From: Diplonema papillatum
Lineage: Eukaryota; Euglenozoa; Diplonemea; Diplonemida; Diplonemidae
Direction of reading: 5' to 3'
Length of the DNA stretch: 64,000 nucleotides
Assembly: GCA_030068145.1 (NCBI GenBank)
Contig: JAPJBO010000005.1
Coordinates: 558,001-622,000 of the forward strand
Shown here piece after piece: positions 898 through 52,420 of the stretch. The notes below the pieces were generated by a model. It was not told the DNA's origin. It saw nothing but the letters and a program-made list of their open reading frames with translations, and made no database searches. Position 1 is the stretch's first letter. Every line of letters starts with the position of its first letter. Position numbers and translations under genes: made by a program.

Positions 898-2117
898 AAT
901 TCGATGGCACCTCCTCCTTTATTCATTGTTGTTCTCTGTCTGACCACCGGCATGGTGTCGAAAAATATAATATTATGCTCACGCACACACAACACACCTT
1001 CTGGCCTGCCCCAGAAGGCCCAAGGGCGGTCGAATAGCACGGGATCGAACAGTATCAACGTCACGGTATATTTCTCCTTAGGTGTGGCGGTCTCCCACTC
1101 CCTAGCGAGGAATTTGGGGAAAGCGAGCGTAAAAGTGTGGATTCACGGTTAAACGAAGCTTGCGCAACAAGGTTTGCCTGATCTTGCGCCGCTGCTTTTG
1201 AAACTCTTCGGCGAGTGAGACGGCAACGTGGTTGCTTGCCTTTTTCCAGAGTGAAAGTTTTCTTCAGGGATTCAGCCCTGCAATGCATTGCGAAAAGGCT
1301 GCAAAGACGTACGCAGCGTGCATTTCTAGTTGGAACCGAATAATCAGTCCTTGCGAAACAAGAGGAAGAGGAGGTGAACACAAAAAGAAATACCTAGATG
1401 AACAGAGGGCGAGTCGATCAACCGGCACACACAACTCGAGGGGGCAAGGCCCCGCATTTCCACCAAAACTACGCATTTCTTCCCCTTTCGGGCTTCTTTC
1501 TGTTTCTGGAGCGCGCTGACAAGGCGCGGTCGGCGTTGTCGAGCTGTTACATCCGAAGGAGAACCCTCGCTTCCGAGCCCCGCACCCCTTCCCCTTGCAC
1601 ATACGCAGACTTTCAGTGTGCGCATCCAATCACTGAGCGGCAGTCGCACCCGCAAGGTTTAAGGTTTCCCCCTCGCACTCCTGTTTTTGCTTCTCATACC
1701 GATCGACTGCTCGTTGTGTGGAACCCCCAGCCTTTTTCTTTCTTTCCTTTTTTTGTTCGTGTTTTTTTTTTTTGTGTTGCTCGTTTTGTGTTTCCACGTT
1801 TGCTGCCGTGTTTTCTCCCCACAAGTATAGCTAGTCCCCCCCCTTGGGGAGGAGAGTGTCAGGGGAAGGGAGTACTTCATGCGCCCACTGGGGAGAAAAT
1901 CTTAGGTTGATGAACAGCCAGCAACACTGCCTCTCGTGCTCGCACGTAGTCTTCTCCGAAGCAAAATGTGCACAATGTTCTCCGTCTCGGGTACCGCTCG
2001 TGAACACAGAACAATCCACGGTTTGAGCTCAGCAGTGGGTCCTTTGGATGGGGCTTTCGGTCCTGTGCAAACGCAACCTTGCTGGTTGGTTAGGAGGAAC
2101 TTCGCTGTTTTTATTTT

Positions 2118-2408
2118 ACATAAGCGCCAGCTTGAAAGGAAATGCTCGACGATGCTGCCCGACAAAGAACAGAAGGGATCCCAAGTGCTGTAACTACCGA
2201 ACCACGTGTTGAACGGACGTGAGGTCATGCGGGTCTACCCCTACACGACAAATCACACAAACACAACAGGTCAAAAAATCCTGAGTGAGAAAACAACACA
2301 CGGTGGTGTAAGCGAAGAACAAATCAGATTGTGTTTGTATTGTATTTGCCCCTTACCTCTATATTTCCCCCCTTCCATTCGGAGTCGAAGCAGCTACGTC
2401 GAGTATTT
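2118..2408 (+). mobile_element. Family A foldback element, first of a tandem pair
   Basis: Starts ACATAAGCGCCAGCTTGAAA after a T-run and ends TCGAGTATTT. Its 5' segment AAATGCTCGACGATGCTGCC is the imperfect inverted complement of its 3' end (reverse complement AAATACTCGACGTAGCTGCT), and similarity goes on inward to GAAGGG on both sides, about 43 bases. No coding capacity, so it would be non-autonomous. Internal landmarks: GGTCATGCGGGTCTACCCCT and CACACGGTGGTGTAAGCG. Confidence 0.8.
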
Positions 2409-2410
2409 TT

Positions 2411-2713
2411 ACATAAGCGCCAGCTTGAAAGGAAATGCTCGACGATGCTGCCCGACAAAGAACAGAAGGGATCCCAAGTGCTGTAACTACCGAACCACGT
2501 GTTGAACGGACGTGAGGTCATGCGGGTCTACCCCTACACGACAAATCACACAAACACAACAGGTCAAAAAATCCTGAGTGAGAAAACAACACACGGTGGT
2601 GTAAGCGAAGAACAAAAAATGGTGTAAGCGAAGAACAAATCAGATTGTATCTGCCCCTTACCTCTATATTTCCCCCCTTCCATTCGGAGTCGAAGCAGCT
2701 ACGTCGAGTATTT
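2411..2713 (+). mobile_element. Family A foldback element, second of a tandem pair
   Basis: Begins two bases after the first copy ends and has the same orientation, so the two form a head-to-tail dimer sharing a T-run. It carries an extra short duplication of GGTGTAAGCGAAGAACAAA near 2600-2640. Otherwise it is nearly identical to its neighbour, indicating recent duplication or insertion into the T-rich 3' end of the first. Confidence 0.8.
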
Positions 2714-4074
2714 TCCATCTTTCTCTTCAGACAACGGCTGCGCGAAGAACAAGCACCGGCGACGTTAGCTGGACGCGTCCCCGGCGGATCTAAAATCAGT
2801 ATCTTCGCGGGTTGCCTCCTGAACTCCAGTTCAGCCTAAAGATGGCCCCCTTTTTTATTTCTTGCAAGCATGCTAATACTGCAGGGAATAGTTGACGAGA
2901 CCTCTTGAATTTGCGCTGCTCACGATTGCGGGAGTTGGAGGAGGCCGACGTAACCTACAACAGGACCTATCCCCCCTTTCCGTGAGAAGAAGCGCAGAAT
3001 AAAAACACCATATATCTATGTGTTGTCTAGAGGTGCGACTCAACTATTCTCACCCCCTTTTGGTTTCTAATATTTTTGCGTTTTCTTTTGTTTTCTCTTA
3101 GGTAGTACTGTTGCACTGAAGGGAACGTTTCCGGAACAAACCAGCTGCACGCGAGAGAGGGTTGCTCTTCCTGCATCTGCAAGGAACAAGAGCATCTTAC
3201 CGCATCATCTTTCACCACCAGCATTCAGTTGAGGCTGACTTCCCGCTGTAGCGTTTATCAGAGGAAGACCCTTATTCCGGGAGTGTTCCCTTCTCTTTTC
3301 AACTTGCTTGGTCCGATTCCTTTCATCTTCGGCTCTTGGTCCCCCCACACAAAGCCCCGTTCTGCTCAACAGGGTTTCCGGACTCTTTCTTTGGCTTTCG
3401 CTCCCATGGTATCCACGGCGGTTCACTGGGTTTGGCGGCCGCGCGGGGCCGGAGAATGCTGGTCGGGACACATCGTTCCATTATCCCTGCAGAGTAAGTG
3501 AGCACCGGAGATTCGACGGGATCCGTTTTGAGCCGACGTCAACTCCTGTGGCGGAAATCCGCTGTGAACACAGTATTACTAAGAGCCACAGTGTGTTTGC
3601 GATTCGTTTGCAAAATTAAACTGTCGTCTGGCCTTGGAGCACCTGCATCTCGTACTTTCCCCCGACGGGGTTTCCGACTTGTTCCGGGTTTACAGGCTCC
3701 TTTTTGCTCGCTTTTCGCTGATTCATAAGATCTCGGTTTCGTGTGTACGACGTCGGATTTGGGTGGTTGCGCCTTCGGCGCTTAAATCTTTTAAGAGAGA
3801 TCGCTGGGGATGGTGATTCCGCCAGTCTGGGCAGGTCCGGAATGCCGGACAGACGCGCCGTTCTTTTGAACGCGCTTTATCGCCATGAAGCGGCTCGAAC
3901 AGTTCCGGTTGCCAGAACGGTTTACGGCTGTGAAGGCGGTTTTGGAGCGGGAACTTCAAAGAACCCCCACAGAATTCGCCCCAGCTCGGAATTGGCTTGT
4001 GCACTTCACCGCACTGCCACAGGCAAAAAGAACGGAAACCGTTCAGGGGGGGGAAGGTACGAACAGCGGGGAAA

Positions 4075-7000
4075 ATGATGAGCAGGCACCTGCTGCTTGC
4101 TGCGCTGTTGGCGGGCTGCTTGCAGGCGGCGTGCGCGGCCACCCCAGCGGAGCGGGCGCAGGCGATGTTGGGGAGGATGAGCTTTCGGGACAAGATCAGG
4201 ATGCTGCACGGCTCAACGGAGGCGGACGGGTACGTCGGCTTGGTCGAAGGGAACACAGAACTCGGAATCCCCGACATCCGCATGAACGACGGGCCGCAGG
4301 GGTTTCGGGCGGTTGATCATCCCGGGACCACGACGCAGTGGCCCAGCTCGTTGGCCATCGCGGCAACGTGGAACGAGACCGCGGCGTACGCGTGGGGGCG
4401 GGCAATGGGTGCGGAGTTCAAAGCGAAGGGCTGCGACATTCAGCTGGGCCCCGCGGTCAACGTGGCGAGGATTCCGCGGGACGGGAGGAACTACGAGTAC
4501 ATCTCCGGCGAAGACCCGCACCTCGGTTCCGTCCTCGCGCCGGCCGCGATCGACGGCATCCAGAGCCAAGGCGTGATGGCGAACTTGAAGCACTTCATCC
4601 TCAACAACCAAGAGGCCAACCGCACCGCGGCGTCTTCCAACGTCGACGAGCGAACGCTGATCGAAATCTACGCACGCCCCTTTTGGGCAGCGGTCACTGC
4701 TGGGAACGTACGAACCGTGATGTGCTCGTACAACTCTATCGTATGCGTTCTCGTGGGGTCTCGAAGGATACTGTTTGGTACGCTTCGCTCCTGCCGACGC
4801 TTGCACGAAATTAGCTGACATTAAACTTCCATTCATAGCAGAAGATTGCACAACGTTTTTTTATTGTATAAGCACCTGCTTTGTAGGAAATGCTTGAGGA
4901 GACTGCCAGTTGCGATAGATCAAAGGAGGTAAATGTGCTGTAGCCCACACGAAACACAGGTAACCCTGGGTTCAGTGGCGGGCGTAAGCGTTCAACAAAA
5001 AAGACCCACTTTGTAGTTGTATTGTTTTCTCCCCCTCTAGCCTCCTTCGAAATGAGCACAAGGCAGTCCCTCGAGTATTTCTTTCAGAGCTCGACGACGG
5101 TAACTATGGACGAGCTCCACAAAATGATCGAGGACCGCAGGCGATCCCGAGCTCTCGCCTTCAACTGCGAAAAACGGCGGAAAACGAAAAGACACGCCCT
5201 TATTTCCCGAAGTACATACATTCCAAAACCAGAACCAAATCCCTCGCAGAACCACGTGCACGCGTGCGAGAACTTCGAAACGCTGCGGACGATTCTGAAG
5301 GGGTACATGAACTTCACGGGGTGGGTCATGTCCGACTGGTTTGCGACGCACACCAGCGTCGACTCCGCCGCGAACGGGCTCGACATGGAGATGCCGTACG
5401 GCTTGTACTTCGACGAGCTGCTGGAGGTGGCGGTCGCCCGCGGGTTGGTCGGCGGCGATCTGCTCGACGAGAAAGTCCTCCGCATCCTGACTACCATGTA
5501 CGGCTTCGGCATGTTCGACCGCCCCAAGTACAACGGCACCGCCGCGACGAACGTGACGAGCGACGAGCACACCCTGCTCGCCGAAGAACTCGCCCTCGGC
5601 TCCGCGGTGCTGCTGAAGAATGAGAACGGGCTCCTCCCCCTGCAGGCGGGAGGTTCCCTGACCATCGCGGTGTTCGGCAAGCCCGCCCATGATGATCCCG
5701 TCACGGGTTCTGTGGCTGGCAGCGGCAAGGTGGTCCCGGCGAGCGTCGTGACAGTCCTCGCGGGAATCGAAAAAACCGGCGCTTTCTCGAACGTCTCGTA
5801 CTACGCCGGAGCCGACGCCGGCGAGGCTTCCCGCCTGGCTCAAGCCGCCGACGTCTGCGTGGTCGTCCTCGCGACAAACAGCAAGGAAGGCCACGACCGG
5901 GAGACGCTGGCCCTGCCGGCGGGGCAGGTAGCGGTGGCGAAGGCGGTCGCCGCCGCCAACCCGCGGGCCGTCGCTTTAATCGTCGCGCCCGGCCCGGTGA
6001 CGGTCGACTGGGACGCGGCCTTCGCTGCGGTGCTCCTCATGGTCAACCCCGGCCAGCAGGAGGGGGCGGCCTTCGCGAAGCTGATCCTCGGCGAGGTCTC
6101 GCCGTCGGGCAGGCTGCCGTTCACCATCCCGAACTCCGACAACGAGATGGAGATGACCCCCGCCCAGTACCCCGGAATCGCGTTGGAGGTCGAATACTCC
6201 GAGAAGCTCAACGTCGGGTACCGCTGGTACAACGCGCACAACGTGCGGCCGAAGTACCCTTTCGGACACGGCTTGTCATGGGTTTCCGTCCAGTACTCGG
6301 CGCTGGCCGTCGACCCGTCAGGCCTCTCCGCCAACGTCACCGTCACCAACACGTCGCCGCTCCCGGGAGCCGACGTGTGCCAGCTGTACGTGTCGTTCCC
6401 CGCAGCGGCCGGCGAGCCGCCGATGCAGCTGAAGGGGTTCAAAAAGGTGTTCCTGCCCGCCGGCGGCAGCGAGACGGTGCGCGTACCAGTCGGGGAGACC
6501 GACCTTTCCGTCTGGAACGTGTCGGCGCACGCGTGGCAGCGGGTGCACGGCAACTTCACGTTCGCGGTGTGTGTTTTGTTTTGTATAAGCACCCGCTTTG
6601 TAGAAAATACTTGAGGCTGCCACCTGCAAAAGATTGAAGGAGGTAAATGTGTTCGTCGCCCACTCGAAACACAGGTGAATCTGGGTTCAGTGGCGGGCGT
6701 AGGCGTTCAACAAAAAAAAAAAAAATGCCGAAGCAACTCGACAGGTCAGGCGTAAGCGTTCAACAAAAAAGACCCGCTTTGTGTGTTGTTTCTCCCCTCT
6801 AGCCTAAGCACAAGGCAGCCCCTCGAGTATTTTCTTTCTTGTACAATCTTGTATCATAAGTGGCGGGGCGGCCGGATTCCCGAAGAGATGGTGTGTGGGT
6901 GCACGCTGACTCGTTCACAGAAGTGCGAAAGGCTTGGGAGATCGTCAGCAGTCACTACGAGCCTGAACAATTCCTGGTGTGTGTCACTGTGGCGCGCCCC

Positions 7001-22575: not shown

Positions 22576-22617
22576 CCGAGGGTTTGAGCCGTATAGCCGG
22601 TTCCTACGGTTATCTCC

Positions 22618-22731
22618 TGGATTGAGTGGCGGGCGTTTAGCGTTCAACAAAAAAGACCCAATTGTAGTTGTATTGTATTCTCCCCCTCTAGCCTCCTTCG
22701 GAATGAGCACAAGGCAGTCCCTCGAGTATTT
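22618..22731 (+). mobile_element. 3' half of a family B element
   Basis: Begins at GAGTGGCGGGCG and runs to CCCTCGAGTATTT, closely matching the right half of the GH3 intron copy. The left half is replaced by a segment shared with 57.5 kb. It lies about 110 bases from the minus-strand copy of the GH3 intron flank. Confidence 0.75.
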
Positions 22732-22838
22732 CGATACCCAGTAATTACCTTCTCAGAGAGCATACTTGTTCTCGCTAAAAAGGGTTGGCAGCGGTTTGAC
22801 TTGAACGCGTACAGGTCAAATCGCACAAGCAGTTTGGA

Positions 22839-22942
22839 GTTGAACGCGAGAGCTCGGGATCGACTGCGATCTTCAATCATTTTGTGGAGCTCCAGGTTTA
22901 CCGTCGAGATCTAGAAGTAAAAGGTTGTGCAATCTTCTGCTA
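22839..22942 (-). repeat. Dispersed repeat matching the flanks of the element in GH3 intron 1 (empty site)
   Basis: Read on the minus strand, ATAGCAGAAGATTGCACAAC is followed by about ten bases and then CTCGACGGTAAACCTGGAGC, CTCCACAAAATGATTGAAGA and CCCGAGCTCTCGCGTTCAAC. The same blocks flank the family B element at 4835-4860 and 5081-5172 in the GH3 intron. Here no element lies between them. Confidence 0.8.
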
Positions 22943-24602
22943 TAAACAGAGAGGATCACCCCACGTTGTGTGTGTCTTTATTAGCCGTTGGCACTCAGCG
23001 ATGACTCGCATAGTGTGTGACAAATTCGGAGAACTGTCCCCGAACAAGAAAGAAGACTTGCGGAACACAGAGTTACACATCAGGAGACGTCGGGTATGGA
23101 GCTGCTGCCGCTGCTCGTAGGGGAGTACTTGATGTAATGCCCTTATAGCCCAAACTGGGATATAAGGGTCTAAAACTTGGGCCCAAAATACTTTAAACGA
23201 TTATTTGGCCAGCAGTGAACACCCCCTACCCTTTACACTCGTATCGGAGAAGTTACGAGAGTCCAAATGCATCGCAGAATAACGCGAACAGCCTTTAAAC
23301 ATTTCTTACAAATTTCTCAAGCTTACCAAGGCCAATCGTCACTTTTAGTGATGGCAAGAGAGGCTGTTCTGCAAATTGCGCTTTCCTCCGTGCTCCTCGT
23401 GAAAGTTCGAACCTGAGATCCGTGCAACTCGATGAAAAGCAAAGAAAATAAACAGTAAAAAAAAAGATCCTTAACCCAAGCAAGTTCCGCCGGTAGAGAT
23501 GACCTGCCTACACGAATCAAGTACCTCCGGATGTCTGAAGCTTGCTGTCATTTTTCGCTTTCTTTTTTTTTTGTTGGGGGGGCAAAGGGGGCGGGGCGGG
23601 GTGAAGAGATACTACCTTCAGAGTCCGAATCAGTCTGATCCAGCTTTCCGCTCTGGCGGGCAAAAAGTATTCTACCTCTCTGCGTAGTGACTATCGATTG
23701 GCTACCGTGAGGCCGGATAAATTGCTGCTTTGCTAAGAGGCCGCAAGGGTGTTAATGCCGCCTCTCCTTTCGGTTCGTGAAACCCAATTGGCAAGTCGCT
23801 TGGTCACTCAGGGGACAACCATTTGCGCATTTATTTGTAGTGCGAGGAGACTGAGCCTGAGACCAGAGAGTATCCCGGTCGGAATGAAGATTCTTGTACC
23901 GCGAATTTCACTCTTAAGGACGTTCTGCGAGGAGTGCGGGAGGTTTGTCTTCCCCACCGTCCGTGCGTGTGTGGGATTGAAAGCTGCATCACCCAACCCA
24001 ACAACATTTCGAAAGCTCGCCTGATGAGGTGCAATTCTTTTTCAAGAAGGAACAACGGCGAATGGCTTGCTCCTCGCAGTGCAACGCAACGGTCCGTCGA
24101 GTGACGACATGCAGACCACCGCCGCAGATTCTTAGCGTTCTGTCCTCAAGCTGTTGAGGGAGAACGCAAAGAGTTTCCCTCCTTTTTCCTCTTCCCCGTG
24201 ACGTGGGTTGTTCCTTGTTTTCCTGACGCGGAAGAATTAGCCATGCGAGCCTCTGCCAGTTCGTCATCTGGAGACAACTGCAGTGAACCTCTCGGCTGCC
24301 TTCGCGGACGCCTCCTCGGACAGCTAGTCTTCTCAGCTTTCTTGCTCCTCAACGCAGATACAGCACAAGTGCAGACGTCAAGTGTCAAGGCTAGCGTTTT
24401 GGAAAGATCGGGCCACTCCCGGGGCTACCCTCCTGCCAGTGCGTACGTGTCGGGGGAAACTGAACGCCCCAAGTAGGACCTTCCGATCGTGATCATTTGC
24501 AAATTATGCCACCTGAAACCACGTCCAGGATTTGGGCTCAGGGTTGTGTTGTCAACGAAAACTCTAGCTTCCCGTTCACCTACTCTCGCGGTGTACGGTT
24601 TT

Positions 24603-26042: not shown

Positions 26043-26400
26043 TGGGCCTTATGAATTCAAATGGGGGGGAGGGGCGGGGGGGAATAGTAGAAGAAGAACG
26101 AAAGGACTTCTCTCTCTGAAGGCAGAAAAAAAGGAACCCTCAGCTGGGGGTATCGGGCGGGGGTGTGTGGGTGATTGGGTTGGGGAATAATAACGAGCTT
26201 AACTCCCTCCCTCCCTTTCAGATTTCTGACGGGATAAAGGACCGGGCGGAGGGGGAGTACTTTTTGATGCAATTCGAGAGACCACTCGGAGCGAAGTAAA
26301 GGGAGCGAGTTGTTTCAGATGTGTGGCCATCATCGATCAGTTGCTGCAAACTTTGCTTCACCGTCATTGATCAGCTAATGCCGACCGCCCGTTTTCTTTT

Positions 26401-26676
26401 GTATAAGCACTGCTTTGCAAGAAATACTTGAGTAGGCTGCCAGTCGTGAAATCTCGACGGTAGTATAGTAGAGGGGTATGCATCAGCATGCTGATGACTC
26501 CCCACTGTCGCAATATTCCAATAAGCAAGTAAATGTGCTGTAGCCCACACGGAACCCAGGTATATCTGGTTCAGTGGCGGGCGTAAGCGTTCAAAAACGA
26601 CCCATGTTGTAGTTGTATGGGGTTCTCCCCCTCTAGCCTCCGTCGAAATAAGCACAAGGCAGTCCCTCGAGTATTT
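26401..26676 (+). mobile_element. Family B foldback element with internal insertion
   Basis: GTATAAGCACTGCTTTGCAA at the start and TCCCTCGAGTATTT at the end. About 75 extra bases near 26455-26525, including ATGCATCAGCATGCTGATGA, which is itself nearly palindromic, interrupt the position where other copies read AAAGGAGGTAAATG. Confidence 0.75.
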
Positions 26677-27369
26677 CTTTGTATATCCCGGACATGACCC
26701 CATCGCCGGGAAGTGTTCTCCGTGGAAGGGATGGACGTTCCGGGATTCGTGGTCAATTCAATTGGATTTGGACGGTTACCCATTCTGGTTATTCCACCCC
26801 GTCGTTGGCACTCCCGAGGCGGCAACAAGCAGTTTTCATGGCGACGCACCGGCATGAATGCTAGGTACCTGTTCTTCGGCGTCACCTTTCGAGAAAACGT
26901 TGCTCCGCTCGATGAAGACCAAAAGGGAAGATGGCAGTCCTTTACGGGGTGCACCTATGGAATACCTCTTTTCTCTTTGGGGGGAAACCGTGCACCAGCA
27001 CTTTTTGATTGGTTTTTGTTAACTTTCTCATGCATACAGCTGTTGATCCGGAGTGTTGCTTCAGACCAACAGAAGTACTCAAGATACTCAGGAACACCTC
27101 CCTGCGAAGAAGACTGAAAGGGCTTCTTCTCTGAAGGAAAACAAATGCGAAGAAAAAACGAAAGGGTTTTCTTCCGAACGAGGGAAAAATTCAAAAGAAA
27201 AGAGGGGGAAAAAAAAAACAAAGGGAAACATATGTGAAGGAGAAAACGAAGATTTTGTTGCAGTGGGAAGAAAAGGGTAGGGACGAGTAGGTGCAGGTAA
27301 ACGAGATCGTTTCGGGCGAGCAGGGTGCATTAGATCAGGGTTGTCACAGTCATCTTCACGCGATGGATA

Positions 27370-32404: not shown

Positions 32405-32600
32405 AAGAGAACGATGGCAGCGGGTTTGGGAAGAGATTAGGCTTACGATCATGTTCACTAAGAGGCTCACTTCCCCTGCAAACAAACATCGCGCCTGTTC
32501 TTTTTTTGCATGCCAGCCTAACGAGCATACTCACTCACTATCATCCACTAGCAGGCTAATCCTCCCCCGGCACGTACAAACAAACACGCGCCTATTCCTT
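32405..32600 (+). repeat. CGAAAGAGAACG-TGGCAGCG repeat with internal duplication
   Basis: CGAAAGAGAACGATGGCAGC, AGATTAGGCTTACGATCATG, then a duplicated module CAAACAAACATCGCGCCTGT / CAAACAAACACGCGCCTATT. The single-module version is at 42254-42385. A family B element follows immediately. Confidence 0.8.
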
Positions 32601-32603
32601 TTT

Positions 32604-32812
32604 GTACAAGCACCTGCTTTGTAGGAAATACTTGAGGAGGCTGCCAGCTGCAAAACATCAAAGGAGGTAAATGTGCTGTAGCCCACACGAAACACAGGTA
32701 AACCTGGGTTCACTGGCGGGCGTAAGCGTTCAACAAAAAAACACTTTGTAGTTGTATTGTTTCTCCCCCTCTAGCCTCCTTTGAAGTAAGCACAAGGCAG
32801 CCCCTCGTATTT
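32604..32812 (+). mobile_element. Family B foldback element
   Basis: A clean 209-base copy. The inverted ends are especially clear: GAAATACTTGAGGAGGCTGCC plus CATCAAAGGAGG at the 5' end, against CCTCCTTTGAAG plus GGCAGCCCCTCGTATTTT at the 3' end. It sits directly after a T-run at the end of a CACGTACAAACAAACA-containing repeat that also occurs at 42.25 kb without the element. Confidence 0.85.
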
Positions 32813-33239
32813 TTTGCCGGAAAACTGGTTGACGCTTCAATAGAGAGTTATTATTGACCGGAGGGTCCGTCGTACCAGAAATTCAGTTTTCCGCACCAGG
32901 GGTCGAGGTCAGAGCTAGTTACAGAAACAGTACCCTGACGTTGGCTCGCCACCTACCAGAATTTGTATGGAATTGCCGATCGAGGGGTGTGTTGTTCTTT
33001 TCCGAACGCGCTCCGGTGCTGTCTAACCATCTTTATTTTTAGGGGCTTTCAGGGGGTTTCCCTCCCTTTCCCCCAGGCAGGATCCAAGAGCCCAATATAG
33101 GAAAGGGGGTCCTCCCCTCCTGGAAGCTCTAGAGCTCCAGGAGGACGGAAGGATCACTACCTCTCCAGTTGGGTAAGCCAGGTGACTCTCGCGTGCTGCT
33201 CTCTCTTCTCTCTCTCCTCTCTCTTCTCTCTCCTCTCTC

Positions 33240-34905: not shown

Positions 34906-36357
34906 AAAGCCCAAAAAAAAATCTTCAAAAAACGGTTTTCGAAGTAAATATAGGCGGGGGGTGTGGTGTTTGTAGCAGTGTGCTGAAGATGCTGGAAGGC
35001 TGCTGAAACCCAGCCGCTGCCGTTCAATTGTGTTCAGCTTCGGGTCGGCAGGTTGCAGCTACCACTGTGCTTCATTACCGGGCCAAGGTCCTGTTTGACA
35101 GTTGAGTAACCCACACGGCCCACACATGATATAGGGGGGGCGGAATTATTTTTGCAAATTCTTCAAATTTACCCGTGAACGCAAAATTTGTTGGAGACAA
35201 AACGTTCCTATTATAGGCTTTTTCCAATGGCTATCAAGGGTGAGTGGCAATTTTTTTCCGTCGCGCCTTCGGCGCGATGTTGCTAAAAATAACGCTAAAA
35301 ATGTTGTTGTAGGCACGGCGGTGCAGGAGCAGATACACCAAAGCCGTATCATAGGAATCATAGGAAGATAGGTCCCCAGGTCCACCCCTTTAGCTGCCTG
35401 ACGAGACTGTCTATTTACGATTTTGACTGTTTTCGGAGCGCGTCCCCATATGTCCCCACATGGGCAACCCCACAGGGAACCCAGAAGCATTCGGAAACCC
35501 CCGAAAAGCTTGATCCAGACTGGCATAGGTTGACAAACGCCAACAGAATGTGTCGCCAAACTGATGGGGTGACCAAATTGACCCATTGAAGACCCCTCTT
35601 TTGCCGAACGAAGTTGTGGAGATGTGTTCGGCTCCGCCCCAAGATGCCGTACATCGGCGAAAACGGCACCGGAAGCCTTCAAAACTAATACCCTGGGCAC
35701 TCCATACCAGGGTTTATCCGCATGGTTAAAAAATTATTTCTTCACCAAACAAAAATATGTATGAGACGATGCCAAAACCCCCCCCCCCTCCCCTTTGCAC
35801 TAATAAAAACCTTTTTAACATCACCCCATACTGGCCCCGAACCCCCATCTGTGTGACCCAAAACGGGTCCCAAACGGTTTTTGACGGGCTGAGTCGAGGT
35901 AAAGGGGTCTCCGAAGGCCCACGAATGGGCCCAGGTGGGCCCCGGAGCGGGCACTCAGCGCGAGGGGGAGAGCCCCAAAAAATGGGGTCGTTTTCGGGCC
36001 TCGCCACTACTCAAACTAGTCAAACACCTTCTGGCCTCCAGCGGGAAACCCAGACTTCAAAACGACAAGATCGGCTGTGTTCAGCCGTAGATAGCCACCA
36101 GCGGGTCCTCTTGAAGCCGAAGAATGCTCTCGGGGGTCACAGTTAGCCCCATGTGTGCAGCGCCAGCAGTGGGCAGGCACACGCTTAGAATGTGTGGTAT
36201 GCAAGTGCACCCTGCCTAGAATCCGGCTTCACCCGCTTTTGAGACACAGTGCTTACAAGGAAAACGCAGAATATAAGGTGGAAAAATGCAAAAGAACCAA
36301 GATGACGACTGTGAGCCCCCCGCCAACGCTAATCTCGGCAGCCTTTCCCCGGTTCTT

Positions 36358-36663: not shown

Positions 36664-37225
36664 CGATCACTCCACGAACTCCAGACCCGTGATCTTTGGC
36701 ATTTTCTCCTCTCTTAGTTTCCGTTTTTCTGGGTCAACCTTAATTCTTAATTAGTATTGCTGGTAAAGCCGGATTCTAGGCAGGGTGCACCTGCTGCACC
36801 CACTCTATTTACAACGTGTGCCTGCCCACCGCAGGCGCTGCAGGCGGGGTGGCCAAGTAGGGCTATCGGTGACCCCTGAGAACATTCTTCGGCTTCAAGA
36901 GGACCCGCTGGTGGCTATCTACAGCGGAACACAGCCGATCTTGTCGTTTTGAAGTCTGGGTTTCCCGCTGGAGGCCAGAAGGTGTTTGACTAGCTTGAGT
37001 AGTGGCGAGGCTTTGAAAATGACCCCATTTTGGGGGCACCCCCCCTCGCACTGAGTGCCCGCTCCGGGGCCCACCTGGGCCTATTCGTGGGCCTTCAGAG
37101 ACCCCTTTACCTCGACTCAGCCCGCCAGAAACCGTTTGGAAACCGTTTTGGGCCACACAGGTGGGATTTCAGGGCCAGTATAGGGTGACATCAAAAAGAA
37201 ATTTATTAGTGCAAAGGGGGGGGGG

Positions 37226-38467: not shown

Positions 38468-39689
38468 GGGGGGGGGGGTGGGGGTTTTGTCATCGTACCA
38501 TATATATATATATTCTCAAACCAGGCCGGTTAAAAAAGGGGTTTTAACCACGGGAGTTTCTGGTGAAAACTTTTTTGTGCCTGCAAGGCTAGAGGACCCG
38601 CAAGACCCACAAGTGGGTCTACAACAAAGCGACGAAGCAGCAACACGCCCACGAAGGTCGCATACCAGGATTACATTAAAAAACCCTCGCTCAACGTGGT
38701 AAAAGAAAAAGAAAAAAAAAATGCTACAGACTTTTTAACCATGATTTTCCGAATTGGGGATCAGAATAGTCCCTGCTCCATACCAAAAAAAAAATCCAGT
38801 AGGAATCTTGCCTAAAGAAATCAACTGCTTTCGGGTAGGCTAGTCTGACACTAGTTGTCGTCGGGAAAAAAAAAGAACGAAAGAACCCAGGGTTGAGTTC
38901 AACTTTCAAGCCTTCTCTTTACAACACGCCAAACTCTCGTCTCTCGTTGGATGATTCCCGTTGGACATACCTTTGCCAGGTTTGGCCAAGCGAACTTGAT
39001 CAATTTGCGTTTTTGTGTGCCCTCTGGATACAGAGAGCATTTCCGGAGGGCGAGGCTTGCACTCGTAAATGAAAAGAATGCATAGTAGAGTTCTGTAGAT
39101 TACGGAAACGGAAAAGCGATCCATCAACACGATGGATAGGCGGTTCTGAAGATTTGGTGCAGTGGGGGTTCTTGTAATAGCACTTGTGTTGTTGCGGCTT
39201 CATTTCCCTTTTCCCGCACTAATTGCGGAAATGTTCCCTCGCAGGCTCCACCCCCTGCCCCCCTTGGAAGAAGAGTTGAAACAACTCGGTCTCAAGAGAC
39301 AGGGGGAAGTAAAGGCAGGAGCGGTAGACGTTGACGGAGAGTAGTTCTTTCCTGCGCATGCCCAAGTGCTGCGCTTCATCCTCTTCTTCCGCAAGTGCTC
39401 ATCTTTTTCTTCCGAGTTGAGATATGTGTTCAACTTCTTTTCTCGCTCTTTCGTTTCATTTATTTTCCTTCCTTTTCTTTTCTCCATATTTCTTTCTTTT
39501 TCAAGGTACGTTGCGTTGGCAAGAATCTCTTCCCTTTCACTTCGAGCTCCAGGGAGCGGAACTTGCGATAATACTGCATCGGGGGTGGGACACAGGTGGA
39601 ACTGATTTCGACTGGTGTGGTTCCATGGGTGAGGGGCCATTCGGTCATACTGACAGGGGCGGAAGAAAACTGGTGATGATGTGGAGTCA

Positions 39690-40690
39690 TAAGCACGCTC
39701 CACCAGTACACAGGTCAAAAGGTTCGTGGAGGCACGCTCCACCAGTACACAGCTCAAAAGGTTTATGGCGTCATAGGCACGCTCCACCAGTACACAGCTC
39801 AAAAGGTTCGTGGAGTCATAGGCACGCTCCACCAGTGCACAGCTCAAAAGGTTCGTGGAGTCATAGGCACGCTCCACCAGTGCACAGCTCAAAAGGTTCG
39901 TGGAGTCATAGGCACGCTCCACTAATACACAGCTCAAAAGGTTCGTGGAGTCTTAGGTACGCTCCACCAGTACCAGCTCAAAAGGTTCGTGGAGTCATAG
40001 GCACGCTCCACAAAAGGTTCGTGGAGTCATAGGCACGCTCCACCAGTACACAGCTCAAAAGGTTCGTGGAGTCATAGGCACGCTCCACCAGTGCACAGCT
40101 CAAAAGGTTCGTGGAGTCATAGGCACGCTCCACTAGTACACAGCTCAAAGGTTGGTGGAGTCATAGGTACGCTCCACCAGTACCAGCTCAAAAGGTTCGT
40201 GGAGTCATAGGCAACGCTCCACCAGTACACAGCTCAAAAGGTTCGTGGAGTCATAGGCACGCTCCACCAGTACACAACTCAAAAGGTTCGTGGAGTCATA
40301 GGCACGCTCCACCAGTACACAGCTCAAAAGGTTCGTGGAGTCATAGGCACGCTCCACCAGTGCACAGCTCAAAAGGTTCGTGGAGTCATAGGCACGCTCC
40401 ACTAGTACACAGCTCAAAAGGTTGGTGGAGTCATAGGCACGCTCCACCAGTACCAGCTCAAAAGGTTCGTGGAGTCATAGGCACGCTCCACCAGTACACA
40501 GCTCAAAAGGTTGGTGGAGTCATAGGCACGCTCCACCAGTGCACAGCTCAAAAGGTTCGTGGAGTCATAGGCACGCTCTACTAGTACACAGCTCAAAAGG
40601 TTGGTGGAGTCATAGGCACGCTCCACCAGTACCAGCTCAAAAGGTTCGTGGAGTCATAGGCACGCTCCACCAGTACACAGCCCAAAAGGT
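39690..40690 (+). repeat. 45-bp satellite array upstream of the ECHDC1-like gene
   Basis: About 22 units of the form CACGCTCCACCAGTACACAG, then CTCAAAAGGTTCGTGGAGTC, then ATAGG. Because 45 is divisible by three, open frames run through on both strands (SSKGSWSHRHAPPVH on +, VERAYDSTNLLSCVL on -). Some units lack the ACAC (CAGTACCAGC) and so shift frame, and one unit is truncated near 40010. Variants include CAGTGCACAG and TTGGTGG. The array ends about 90 bp from the start codon of the downstream gene. Confidence 0.95.
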
Positions 40691-40776
40691 TTAATCAGAA
40701 AAGTCATAGGGTCCTCCCAACCCGAGGGTGGTGGAAAGAAAGGCGTCTGCGCGGTGTAGACGCCGCCCGCCGGAGA

Positions 40777-48334: not shown

Positions 48335-50095
48335 GGAGCTCTGCATTTCACTTATTTCCTCCCCACCCCATGTGCATTATATTGTCATGAACTGTCGCCG
48401 GCGTCAGTCGTCCAGCAAGTACCTGGCGCTTTCAACGACGCGATCGTCGACACCTCCACCCCCCCCAGCACCATCAGCAACACCATATAGGCCACATCAA
48501 CCCGCATCGACTTGATGGTATACAGGGACGTCCTTGTTTCCGCGTGGCACTTGTGCATCTACAATGCTTCCCTCCCCACCAGAGCCTCCGCCCTACTCAA
48601 GTACCCCGCCATCCCCACTTTAAGCGACCCGAAACGTCATCAACCGGCAGAGCCATATTTAAGGGTGTAGCCTAATGCCGGTGCTTCCTATCTACATCAA
48701 CCGACAGAGCATATTTTTACGAGTATATCCCAATGCCAATACTTCCTTCATCCGCCTTCCGCCCCCTTCCCCTCGGCGTGTGCGGCTCCAGACAACTCAA
48801 GAATTAGAAGAACTTCCGGTACTTTGAAAAAGAAGATTCCATCAACCCATCAACCCATCAACCCATCACCCGCACGATGCGGGCGCAGTTTTTTTTAATC
48901 TTATTTTAATCTAATAATAATCTTTAAAAAGTAGAGAATACGACAACGCGGCTTTTCTCCCCCTCCCCGAAGAGATGCGTAGCAAGTCAACTTGCAGCAT
49001 ACAAAGCTGGCGTCGCGGTCCGCACGAGACAGCCCCTGTTCGCTCCGTCCGAGAGGCGGCAGTCGTCGTGCCGCAGCGCCAAGCCCAAGGATTGCCGCAT
49101 TCTGTGTGCCCTTTTGGTCTAGGAAAACGCACCTTTCAGATCTTTGCTACGTCCTCCTTGCTGGTGCCACCGCCCACGGTGAAAGCGACCTATTCTTGGT
49201 GTTTTGCGCCCAACCGAGGGTGCTCATTAAGAATATGAACCCTGGTACTAAAGAGGGGGTCGATTAATAACACTGTGTTATTATTCGATGTGTCGAATAA
49301 TAAAAAAAGTTTCGGGTAGCCGAACAGTAGCAGGATCCAATAGTGGTAGTGTTTTTAGACAACCAGACGTGTGTCAAATAACGACAGATTTCCCCCCCCC
49401 AGAGAAGTTATGTGGCCCGGCTCCGGAAATGAACCCACCCTTCAGGCACAGGGTCACGGTGAAGTCCAGCCTCAGAAGCTGGAGTTAAAAGCTGGAGTGA
49501 AAAATTGGGTGTCACACCCGCTTTTCGGGTGTGGATGTGGATTTCCACGTGTTTCGGTTGTGTCACACCCGCTTTTCGGGTGTGACTCGGGCACACCCTC
49601 TTTAACTTCAGCTTCTGAGGCTGGACCTCACCGTGTAGGGTGGACGGTGGTGCAGCACAGTGCGAACTACGGATCAAGCTTTGCATGCCGCGGTTGACCG
49701 TTACGCTCTTGCTCGCCCCTAAACAAACTTCTTCACCTTCTGGTCGGCGAAGCCGTGTGATTATTTTCACTTCCCAGCGCTCACCTGTCAATCGCACTTG
49801 GTACAACCCTCGAATTGTTCTCGATACTATACCCCCCCTCACTCCCTTCAGCAAGACTTCGCTTCAGCAAGACAAACGAACACATTCAAAGTGACATACG
49901 CTTCCTCCGTCTAAGCCACGCCACTGTTTTACGTTGGTTCAGCACCGGACAGCCGCGGAGGACCACCCGTCAGAGCCTCCATACTACGCCGCGGGGCCTC
50001 TTCTACCGTGCAGCAGAGAGGCTTAGCAAGTCAAGCAAATAATTAGCCACATACGGACGGAGGGTGGGTGTTAATTTTGAGAAAATGGGCTTTTC
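48335..50095. other. Spacer after the cyclase-homology gene
   Basis: Contains a diverged ~60-bp direct repeat (CATCAACCGGCAGAGCCATA at 48635, CATCAACCGACAGAGCATAT at 48695), a CATCAACC microrepeat (48840-48870), a hairpin repeat, and near 49295 GGGTAGCCGAACAGTAGCAG, which recurs from 17561 with following TAGTGGTAGTG. No gene is supported. Confidence 0.5.
49468..49640 (+). repeat. Hairpin repeat with AGCCTCAGAAGCTGGAG ends, most complete copy
   Basis: GTCCAGCCTCAGAAGCTGGA on the left pairs with CAGCTTCTGAGGCTGGACCT on the right. The interior carries two CACACCCGCTTTTCGGGTGT palindromes separated by a CCACGTG-containing spacer. Confidence 0.85.
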
Positions 50096-51730
50096 AAGGC
50101 AGCCCTTGGTTCATACTCAAAAGGGTGTTTCGTAGGTCAAAAAATGGGAACCGAGGGGCGCATTTGAAAGATTTCGTGGCAGATCTCAAGGCAACCCTTG
50201 GTTCAAGGCTACCCTTGGTTCAAGGCTACCCTTGGTTCAAGGCAACCCTTGGTTCAAGGCTACCCTTGGTTCAAGGCTACCCTTGGTTCAAGGAAACCTT
50301 TGTTCAAGGCTACCCTTGGTTCAAGGCAACCCTTGGTTCAAGGCTACCCTTGGTTCAAGGCTACCCTTGGTTCAAGGCAACCCTTGGTTCAAGGCTACCC
50401 TTGGTTCAAGGCAACCCTTGGTTCAAGGCAACCCTTGGTTCAAGGCTACCCTTGGTTCAAGGCAACCCTTGGTTCAAGGCAACCCTTGGTTCAAGGCTAC
50501 CCTTGGTTCAAGGCAACCCTTGGTTCAAGGCTACCCTTGGTTCAAGGCAACCCTTGGTTCAAGGCAACCCTTGGTTCAAGGCTACCCTTGGTTCAAGGCA
50601 ACCCTTGGTTCAAGGCTACCCTTGGTTCAAGGCTACCCTTGGTTCAAGGCTACCCTTGGTTCAAGGCAACCCTTGGTTCAAGGCTACCCTTGGTTCAAGG
50701 CAACCCTTGGTTCAAGGCTACCCTTGGTTCAAGGCAACCCTTGGTTCAAGGCTACCCTTGGTTCAAGGCAACCCTTGGTTCAAGGCTACCCTTGGTTCAC
50801 CCTTGGTTCAAGGCAACCCTTGGTTCACCCTTGGTTCAAGGCTACCCTTGGTTCAAGGCTACCCTTGGTTCAAGGCAACCCTTGGTTCAAGGCAACCCAT
50901 GGTTCATACTCAGAAGGGTGTTTCGTAGGTCAAAAAATGGGAACCGAGGGGCGCATTTGAAAGATTTCGTGGCAGATCTCAAGGCAACCCTTGGTTCAAG
51001 GCAACCCTTGGTTCAAGGCAACCCTTGGTTCAAGGCAACCCTTGGTTCAAGGCAACCTTGGTTCATACTCAGAAGGGTGTTTCGTAGGTCAAAAAATGGG
51101 AACCGAGGGGCGTATTTGAAAGATTTCGTGGCAGATCTCAAGGCAACCCTTGGTTCAAGGCTACCCTTGGTTCAAGGCAACCCTTGGTTCAAGGCAACCC
51201 TTGGTTCAAGGCAACCCTTGGTTCAAGGCAACCCTTGGTTCAAGGCAACCCTTGGTTCAAGGCAACCCTTGGTTCATACTCAAAAGGGTGTTTCGTAGGT
51301 CAAAAAATGGGAACCGAGGGGCGCATTTGAAAGATTTCGTGGCAGATCTCAAGGCAACCCTTGGTTCAAGGCTACCCTTGGTTCAAGGCAACCCTTGGTT
51401 CAAGGCAACCCTTGGTTCAAGGCAACCCTTGGTTCAAGGCAACCCTTGGTTCAAGGCAACCCTTGGTTCAAGGCAACCCTTGGTTCATACTCAAAAGGGT
51501 GTTTCGTAGGTCAAAAAATGGGAACCGAGGGGCGCATTTGAAAGATTTCGTGGCAGATCTCAAGGCAACCCTTGCTTCAAGGCAACCCTTGGTTCAAGGC
51601 AACCCTTGGTTCAAGGCAGTCCTTGGTTCAAGGCAACCCTTGGTTCAAGGCAACCCTTGGTTCATACTCAGAAGGGTGTTTCGTAGGTCAAAAAATGGGA
51701 CCCGAGGGGAGATTTCGTGGCAGATCTTTT
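50096..51730 (+). repeat. 17-bp satellite with higher-order organisation
   Basis: Units AAGGCAACCCTTGGTTC and AAGGCTACCCTTGGTTC alternate in blocks. Blocks are separated by an ~85-base linker (GGTGTTTCGTAGGTCAAAAA, ATGGGAACCGAGGGGCGCAT, TTGAAAGATTTCGTGGCAGA) seen near 50125, 50918, 51074, 51286, 51497 and 51671. The first block has about 41 units; later blocks have 4 to 8 and use the AAC variant almost only. Since 17 is not a multiple of three, all three + frames stay open with a 17-residue period (KATLGSRLPLVQGNPWF). Confidence 0.95.
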
Positions 51731-52203
51731 ATGTGCGCACCTCGACGCTGAATGAATACACATGGAAGTGACCCGGGACGGGCACCCGTGGCGTCTTGCA
51801 GAGACCCGCGAATTAATGAATTAACTTCGCCTTGTGGCGTAGTTCGTCCGTATGTGGTTAAACAAGGAAAAAGGAAGCCCCACGCCTATCACGCCAGCGC
51901 TAGCAGAAATTCATCCCTCCCCGGGGAGTTGTCTAACAGTTGCAGTCGTAAGAAATGAAAAAAAAGAGGACCCCCGGGTGGGCTAGTCTGACACAAGTTG
52001 TCAACAGGAAAAAGAAAAAAACAATCGACCGCACAAAAAAAAGGAAACCGGAAAATTGTGGGAAAAATGAAGACGTCCTCCGCCGCCGGTACCGATCTGA
52101 TTGTTAACGCAGAAAGTAACCGGGGGGGTTGGGACACTTGAATCGAATGCAAACGAGCAAGCTGGTTGGTTGAATGTGCTGCGAGCCTCCTCTTTCTTTT
52201 TTT

Positions 52204-52420
52204 GTATCAGCACCTGCTTTGTTGGAAATACTTGAGAAGACTGCCAGTTGCGAAATCTTAAAGGAGGTGAAATGTGCTGTAGCCCACACGAAACACAGGT
52301 AAATCTGGGTTTCGTGGCGGGCGTAAGCGTTCAACAAAAAAGACCAACTTTGTAGTTGTCTTGTTTTCTCCCCCCTCTAGCCTCCGTCGAAATAAGCACA
52401 AGGCAGCCCCTCGAGTATTT
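52204..52420 (+). mobile_element. Family B foldback element
   Basis: A complete 217-base copy starting GTATCAGCACCTGCTTTGTT after a T-run and ending CAGCCCCTCGAGTATTT. Located just downstream of the 17-bp satellite region. Confidence 0.85.

Follow-up and report, generated by a model that had tools for sequence, protein, structure and literature searches.

The intron of a GH3 beta-glucosidase-like gene carries a short repeat that folds back on itself, and the sequences on either side of it are found again in the same stretch of DNA, on the other strand, where they adjoin without it. This arrangement raises the question of what kind of element entered the intron, by what reaction it did so, and whether it moved on its own account or is what remains of something larger. 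The window analysed here is a stretch of 64,000 nucleotides, bases 558001–622000 of contig C5 in a 271-Mb eukaryotic genome of 2910 contigs, and positions within it are counted from its first base.

A filled intron and its empty counterpart

By Pfam profile, exon 1 encodes the GH3 N domain and exon 2 encodes both the GH3 C and the Fn3-like domain (Table 1), and the predicted spliced protein aligns to PDB entry 4i3g without a gap over the exon junction. The intron was lengthened by the insertion, from about 292 bp to 509 bp, and judged from this homology it is removable in frame; the original prediction that splicing survived holds in that sense, as an expectation from the alignment. The splice sites (4741 and 5249) are separated from the inserted unit by 123 and 169 bp, respectively, and are not borne by the element, as those of an introner would be. 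An acceptor-like TTTCTTTCAG is present at the right edge of the unit. At the other end of the gene, the GH3 frame enters an older-type copy of the same repeat (6582–6828) and stops inside it. Either the C terminus was altered by that copy or it lies in a later exon.

The left flank of the insertion (4832–4859) matches 22946–22919 at 92.9% over 28 bp (E 4e-5), and the right flank (5095–5166) matches 22906–22838 at 84.7% over 72 bp (E 6e-16, or E 3e-14 for the right flank alone in a whole-genome search). Both matches are collinear on the minus strand, and 12 bases (22907–22918) separate them. In a full scan of excision points against this paralogue, removal of 217 bp gave the top score (120), followed by removal of 220 bp (119). 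A coarser scan scored 119 with the real paralogue, and its controls reached no more than 14 (60 shuffles of that paralogue) and 13 (100 other segments of the window). The flank similarity withstands alignment, with controls far lower, and the claim that the two flanks adjoin without the element near 22.8 kb is confirmed (22838–22946, with the 217-bp excision best).

The cut that removes TT, a 212-bp repeat and TTT (4864–5080) scores 115. A cut of equal length, offset by 4 or 5 bases, scores highest, and the ends of the unit are uncertain by 4–5 bases inside T-rich sequence. The element had been described as 215 bp long, inserted between the two flanks, with ends pinned to a few bases: the scan does fix the ends to a few T residues and the insertion between the flanks stands, with the size corrected to 217 bp (TT + 212 + TTT). 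Taken together, the flank matches and the excision scan place the insertion in one copy of a duplicated stretch. The empty site has a neighbour of the same repeat family, a truncated copy in opposite orientation at a distance of about 100 bp (22616–22735).

Table 1. Positions in the window of the GH3 gene, the inserted unit with its flanks and parts, the empty site and related repeat copies.
Feature	Position	Strand	Basis or remark
GH3 exon 1 (222 aa, Glyco_hydro_3 domain)	4075..4740	+	open frame from ATG 4075 to GT donor; PF00933 4.1e-24
GH3 intron, GTATGC...CGCAG, phase 0, 509 bp (292 bp minus inserted unit)	4741..5249	+	
Left flank of insertion, common to empty paralogue	4832..4859	+	
T-rich left junction (target T-run + TT of unit)	4857..4865	+	
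Inserted 217-bp unit TT-[212-bp A-B repeat]-TTT, probable solo split direct repeat of YR retrotransposon	4864..5080	+	excision scan; layout as A2-B2 of L086
A part of repeat, matches A1 at 5' end of full element	4866..5000	+	L086 A1 vs A2
Left fold-back arm, sub-terminal	4888..4907	+	fold z -4.33; arms compared between types
B part of repeat, matches B1	4982..5077	+	L086 B1 vs B2; about 19 bp overlap with A
Right fold-back arm, terminal	5062..5080	+	fold and arm comparison between types
Right flank of insertion, common to empty paralogue	5095..5166	+	
GH3 exon 2 (GH3 C-terminal and Fn3-like domains), putative 3' end	5250..6587	+	PF01915 5.6e-45, PF14310 2.2e-18
Second A-B copy, older type, at GH3 3' end, retaining some interior sequence of the autonomous element	6582..6828	+	
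Family A head-to-tail dimer, joined via the same TTTTT junction	2114..2714	+	
Truncated A-B copy of the same family (right part)	22616..22735	+	93.2% over 118 bp to 4965-5081
Empty paralogous site, sole other flank copy found in genome	22838..22946	-	
Older A-B copy with internal insertion	26390..26680	+	
Older A-B copy	32599..32815	+	
Older A-B copy	52203..52416	+	

The stretch that received the element had been taken for a pre-existing dispersed repeat. Genome searches with the empty site and the right flank as DNA and with the right-flank peptide as protein, made with a tool that skips very common words, returned two copies, both in this window, which speaks against a dispersed repeat; on the evidence of these searches, the flanks are a two-copy inverted duplication whose members lie 17.7 kb apart. 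A 60-bp core of the flanks (5112–5171 vs 22833–22892) has a reading frame common to both copies (ELHKMIEDR.RSRALAFN), and five of its seven differences have the same codon phase, a weak hint that this part of the intron is possibly a coding relic.

The relative age of the two states can be read from their divergence. The GH3 flanks and the empty paralogue are about 13% divergent, whereas the GH3 copy of the element differs from the majority of 54 other copies, the GH3 copy itself being left out of the comparison, at 1 of 212 positions. The majority sequence is found unchanged in 44 of those 54, most of which were chosen as closest to GH3, and in 5 of 14 copies chosen by an exact 58-mer, the remaining nine being one or two bases off. 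Given an element so close to its majority between flanks so far apart, the filled GH3 state is the derived one and the 22.8-kb site represents the older state, and the insertion is, by this comparison, recent and later than the duplication of the flanks. The opposite course, in which the element once stood at the 22.8-kb site and was removed from it by a precise deletion, had been raised in the original prediction as its own counter-case. A comparison of two copies alone lacks direction, and precise excision is possible for elements that use a tyrosine recombinase (YR); but an element 1/212 off its majority, between flanks about 13% apart, cannot have been present since the duplication unless it was converted, and we regard precise loss as very improbable.

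The parent retrotransposon

An exact 58-mer of the A part of the repeat occurs at 339 places in the genome, and among the places listed seven pairs stand exactly 4464 bp apart in the same orientation. The one pair that was fetched, L086, belongs to a 4.68-kb element with the order A1 – gag-like – YR – RT/RNase H – B1 – TTTTT – A2 – B2, bordered by a T-run at the left and by TTT after A2-B2 at the right. A1 and A2 differ by a single mismatch in roughly their first 135 bases, and B1 and B2 agree over about the last 96 bases, which gives the split-direct-repeat layout A1 – ORFs – B1 A2 B2. The A2-B2 region of L086 is the 212-bp element itself, without a single difference from the copy majority, and the GH3 unit, with 1 difference in 212, corresponds to a solo AB copy of it.

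Three open reading frames lie between A1 and B1, one of them gag-like by position only. ORF2 matches Phage_integrase (PF00589) at 6.9e-9 and 36.1 bits, above the cut-off of 27.1, and R...HxxR...H...Y, which we take to be the tyrosine recombinase motif, is seen in it by eye. ORF3 matches the reverse transcriptase (RT) structure 5ovn at 3.6e-5, and its RNase H is recognised by eye only. Two points weigh against the reading as a YR retrotransposon: the match of ORF3 to RVT_1 (1.7e-5, 25.1 bits) falls under the curated cut-off of 29.6, and the RT (L086:2649–4445) reads WVDN in place of the expected YxDD, as it does in 37 copies at 100%. A profile search of the L086 ORFs gave no match to a methyltransferase family.

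Among the 75 RT matches listed, 37 cover residues 1–599 at 100% (rounded) and are stop-free, and a second group of 31 stands at 82–83%, each with one TAG in the matched stretch. L103, which belongs to the second group, also has B1–TTTTT–A2–B2, in the older sequence type met elsewhere in the window. By their sequences, L103 and L086 represent two autonomous subfamilies, with RTs 82–83% identical and each with its own A-B type. Copies with an RT on contigs C1–C163 were inspected by hand (9 full, 1 partial), and the 58-mer stands at the A2 place in 9 of these 10 and at the A1 place in 8. Seven of the nine full copies examined end in B2 + TTT with differing flanks; the other two, C48 and C2, are without a complete right end.

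We are therefore confident, RT caveats included, that the unit in the GH3 intron, 217 bp long with its five T counted, is a solo A-B split direct repeat, and that the retrotransposon family from which it comes has intact copies and integrates by means of a tyrosine recombinase, not a DDE integrase. The name 'foldback element' that it was first given is apt as a description and does not denote a class; the element is better called a split direct repeat of a YR retrotransposon. It had also been said to have moved as a unit, but the 217 bp in the GH3 intron may be the remnant of a 4.68-kb insertion.

Its ends also call to mind a non-autonomous Helentron/Helitron2 (HINE), which would have moved by rolling-circle transposition, with asymmetric inverted repeats and T-rich insertion without duplication. 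The A-B repeat has a sub-terminal and a terminal inverted repeat, a small hairpin at one end, a T-rich target and no clear duplication, much as Helentrons, HINEs and Helitron2 elements do (PMC4067079, PMC3627910), and the genome contains 68 Helitron_like_N matches. However, the elements of those two papers are rolling-circle Rep-helicase elements, whereas the element that bears the ends found here encodes RT, RNase H and a tyrosine recombinase. Although PF14214 elements were found, the A-B end motifs are absent from the 22 Helitron loci examined, most of them without ends of their own, with one complete (L067) and one nearly complete (L068) tandem unit, and the T-run and the hairpin end would not be on the strands that a Helentron calls for. 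We give this identity very little credence. Many of the Helitron_like_N matches (on C249, C355, C930, C907, C1879, C514 and others) lie in open frames of more than 1000 codons, and on C514 they form an exact tandem with a spacing of 7154 bp between the first three.

A poly(A)-tailed SINE on the minus strand is scarcely credible: the left end of most top-scoring copies has at least 9 T and resembles an A tail, but that sample was picked by a query with long T-runs, copies chosen by the 58-mer have as few as 2 T at the left, no direct match longer than 7 bases was seen across the element in 47 copies, and a T-run target accounts for the T's at either end. A TIR transposon or MITE was rejected since the inverted repeats are not both terminal. 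A partner with the same left-end pattern and a different interior was likewise sought and given up, 16 of the 17 matches being variants of the A-B repeat and one (L085) not.

Fold-back arms and T-run targets

The two arms of the A-B repeat are asymmetric, one being terminal and the other about 22 bp inside, and each arm matches its own partner in three types of element: GAGACTGCC/GGACTGCC in L086, GAGGCTGCC/GGGCTGCC in L103 and CGACGATGCTGC/CGACGTAGCTGC in family A. The older window copies at 26398 and 52203 have one unmatched base in the arms. An inverted pair flanking a core is the usual layout of a tyrosine-recombinase site. The related family A (TTACATAAGCGCC...CGAGTATTT), present at 2114–2714, 8047, 17637 and 53699, has the same kind of arms and the TTTTT junction. 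A search of Rfam gave one match, at E 4.3, which we took as chance. Other repeats in the window are a 366-bp inverted repeat (89%, 35784–36149 / 36860–37225), a 45-bp tandem array at 39644–40760 and a 17-bp tandem array at 50034–51815.

The T residues that border the GH3 unit recur in other copies. Among 69 copies with both ends, all have at least TTT at the right, 68 have at least TT at the left and 55 are exactly 212 bp long; a copy entered this count only if it had at least 8 flank bases on the left and 6 on the right, and identical flanks were counted once; its members are not all independent insertions, and about 40 came from a query favouring long T-runs. The sample chosen by the 58-mer comprised 18 copies, from which L107, L119, L120 (without B end) and L116 (mis-measured, with a tandem neighbour) were left out, and the rule of at least TT at the left and at least TTT at the right is kept in all 14 properly measured copies.

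Empty sites are known for five insertions besides that in GH3, two of which (L018 and L035) are not clean. The insertion represented by L008, L015 and L019 has empty counterparts in L044 and L025. A joint query with the joined flanks of 11 of 12 sites (L016 was dropped) gave, with the best 40 candidates scored, 41 matches at at least four sites, namely 23 for L040, 15 for L018, 2 for L017 and 1 for L035, and 10 of the 41 were read at base level. At L040 the empty site has T6, T8, T9 or T10 and the filled site T10 + T5; at L017 the empty site has T8 and the filled site T12 + T3. The empty sites of L018 have T6 to T9 and the filled site T13 + T3 with extra bases, so that this case is not clean, and the empty site of L035, at 87%, is not clean to the base.

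Where a filled site could be compared with an empty one, no target duplication was seen outside T-rich sequence. Filled sites are 5 to 10 T longer than the clean empty ones, and because this gain is mostly larger than the unit's own five T, a duplication of TTT is indistinguishable from homopolymer drift. In 5 of 47 copies the two sides of the element match each other directly over 4 to 7 T-rich bases (e.g. TTTCTT). The original prediction had named two signs that would support transposition, and one of them, further empty sites, did appear, for five other insertions; the other, a constant short target duplication, was not seen outside T-rich sequence.

Several copies (L041, L029/L045, L024/L042, L025 and L113) lie at the T-rich left edge of other repeats, and some pairs among them have right flanks in common and left flanks that differ. 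Other repeats may use the same T-run target.

Origin of solo copies and relation to known elements

Alongside the layout, the T-run target, the recent age of the insertion and the prior site in a duplicated stretch, all of which are observed, we propose a reaction whose circle steps are modelled on DIRS elements (PMC3266345) and on the split-repeat model mentioned in PMC6681497. The element would circularise and form a B–TTTTT–A junction. The recombinase, we infer, would bind the two inverted arms flanking the T core of the circle and exchange that core with a genomic T-run, and an exchange of this kind would leave the insert flanked by T's without a real target duplication.

A solo unit could arise by either of two routes: A1 may recombine with A2 within a full copy already in the genome, or a 217-bp A-B circle may itself integrate. 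The second would make solo A-B units self-mobile, with the recombinase resolving two B–TTTTT–A junctions to yield a 217-bp minicircle that enters T-runs, a possibility that we rate at somewhat below even. Solos seem commoner than full copies, with 339 exact 58-mers (at most two per full copy) against 37 full RT copies among the 75 matches listed, and they are young, as the counts of majority sequences given above suggest (44/54, mostly chosen near GH3, and 5/14 in the 58-mer sample). Head-to-tail units joined by TTTTT occur (L039), three copies on C76 stand at a spacing of 217, and the inserted length of 217 is that of one head-to-tail unit. However, collapse by A1 × A2 recombination yields an identical 217-bp end product. 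Solo long terminal repeats normally outnumber full elements. The internal-deletion junction, considered as a common mark of mobilisation in trans, is found at two places only in the genome, in two sequence types, and no clear movement of short copies in trans was seen. One candidate pair of full and solo copies at the same site (L086/L028) was not used, its left flank being common and its right flank diverging beyond a CTT microsatellite.

Solo AB repeats are already in print for two systems. In Cafeteria burkhardae, isolated AB units are scattered in the genome, their Ngaro parent has the layout A1-[ORFs]-B1A2B2 with a tyrosine recombinase, and the units are proposed to have arisen as solo LTRs do, by a suggested collapse of full copies (PMC8547959). 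In Trypanosoma cruzi, the short SIRE matches the A2-B2 part of VIPER, a split-direct-repeat element with the order gag – YR – RT/RH (PMC6681497). The repeat in the GH3 intron is like both. It is unlike Ngaro in gene order, which is gag – RT/RH – YR in Cafeteria and has YR before RT in L086, and the T-run core, five-T junction and inverted arms set it apart from the Cafeteria account as far as that partial description extends (PMC8547959).

In L086 the order is the VIPER-like gag – YR – RT/RH without a methyltransferase, the gag being assigned by position only. The likeness to VIPER is one of gene order and repeat layout, and the host, whose GH3 gene has a spliceosomal-type intron, is unlikely to be a kinetoplastid. 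A search for the chlorophyll a/b-binding family gave no match. VIPER is said to be known only from kinetoplastids in PMC3783388, and PMC6681497 mentions few VIPER matches outside them, some ascribed to contamination. The term VIPER-like is used twice in PMC9210276 (Xenopus), and the titles and abstract openings of the searched literature named no VIPER-like element outside kinetoplastids. With DIRS1-like elements (PMC3266345), the proposed reaction would share integration of a circle by a tyrosine recombinase, a 3-bp core often with T's and lack of target duplication. DIRS1 differs in that its terminal repeats are inverted and that it has internal complementary regions and a methyltransferase domain; L086 carries split direct repeats and gave no methyltransferase match.

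A more far-reaching account would join these threads: a VIPER-type (gag – YR – RT/RH) lineage thrives outside kinetoplastids, its recombinase makes 217-bp minicircles that transpose themselves into T-runs, and the hundreds of solos, GH3's included, are products of integration and not relics. As a whole we consider this account unlikely, at roughly one chance in several.

On the reading that we prefer, a fold-back repeat that had no class is now placed in a defined one, as the solo split direct repeat of a YR retrotransposon; its parent is identified, its integration reaction can be put to the test, and the GH3 gene offers an example of an intron that gained 217 bp with the reading frame, as predicted, kept. 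Full, solo and empty sites occur together in one genome, which is material for asking how split-direct-repeat retrotransposons form solos. If the VIPER-type gene order reflects kinship, which is a matter for phylogeny, a group reported from kinetoplastids would range much wider.
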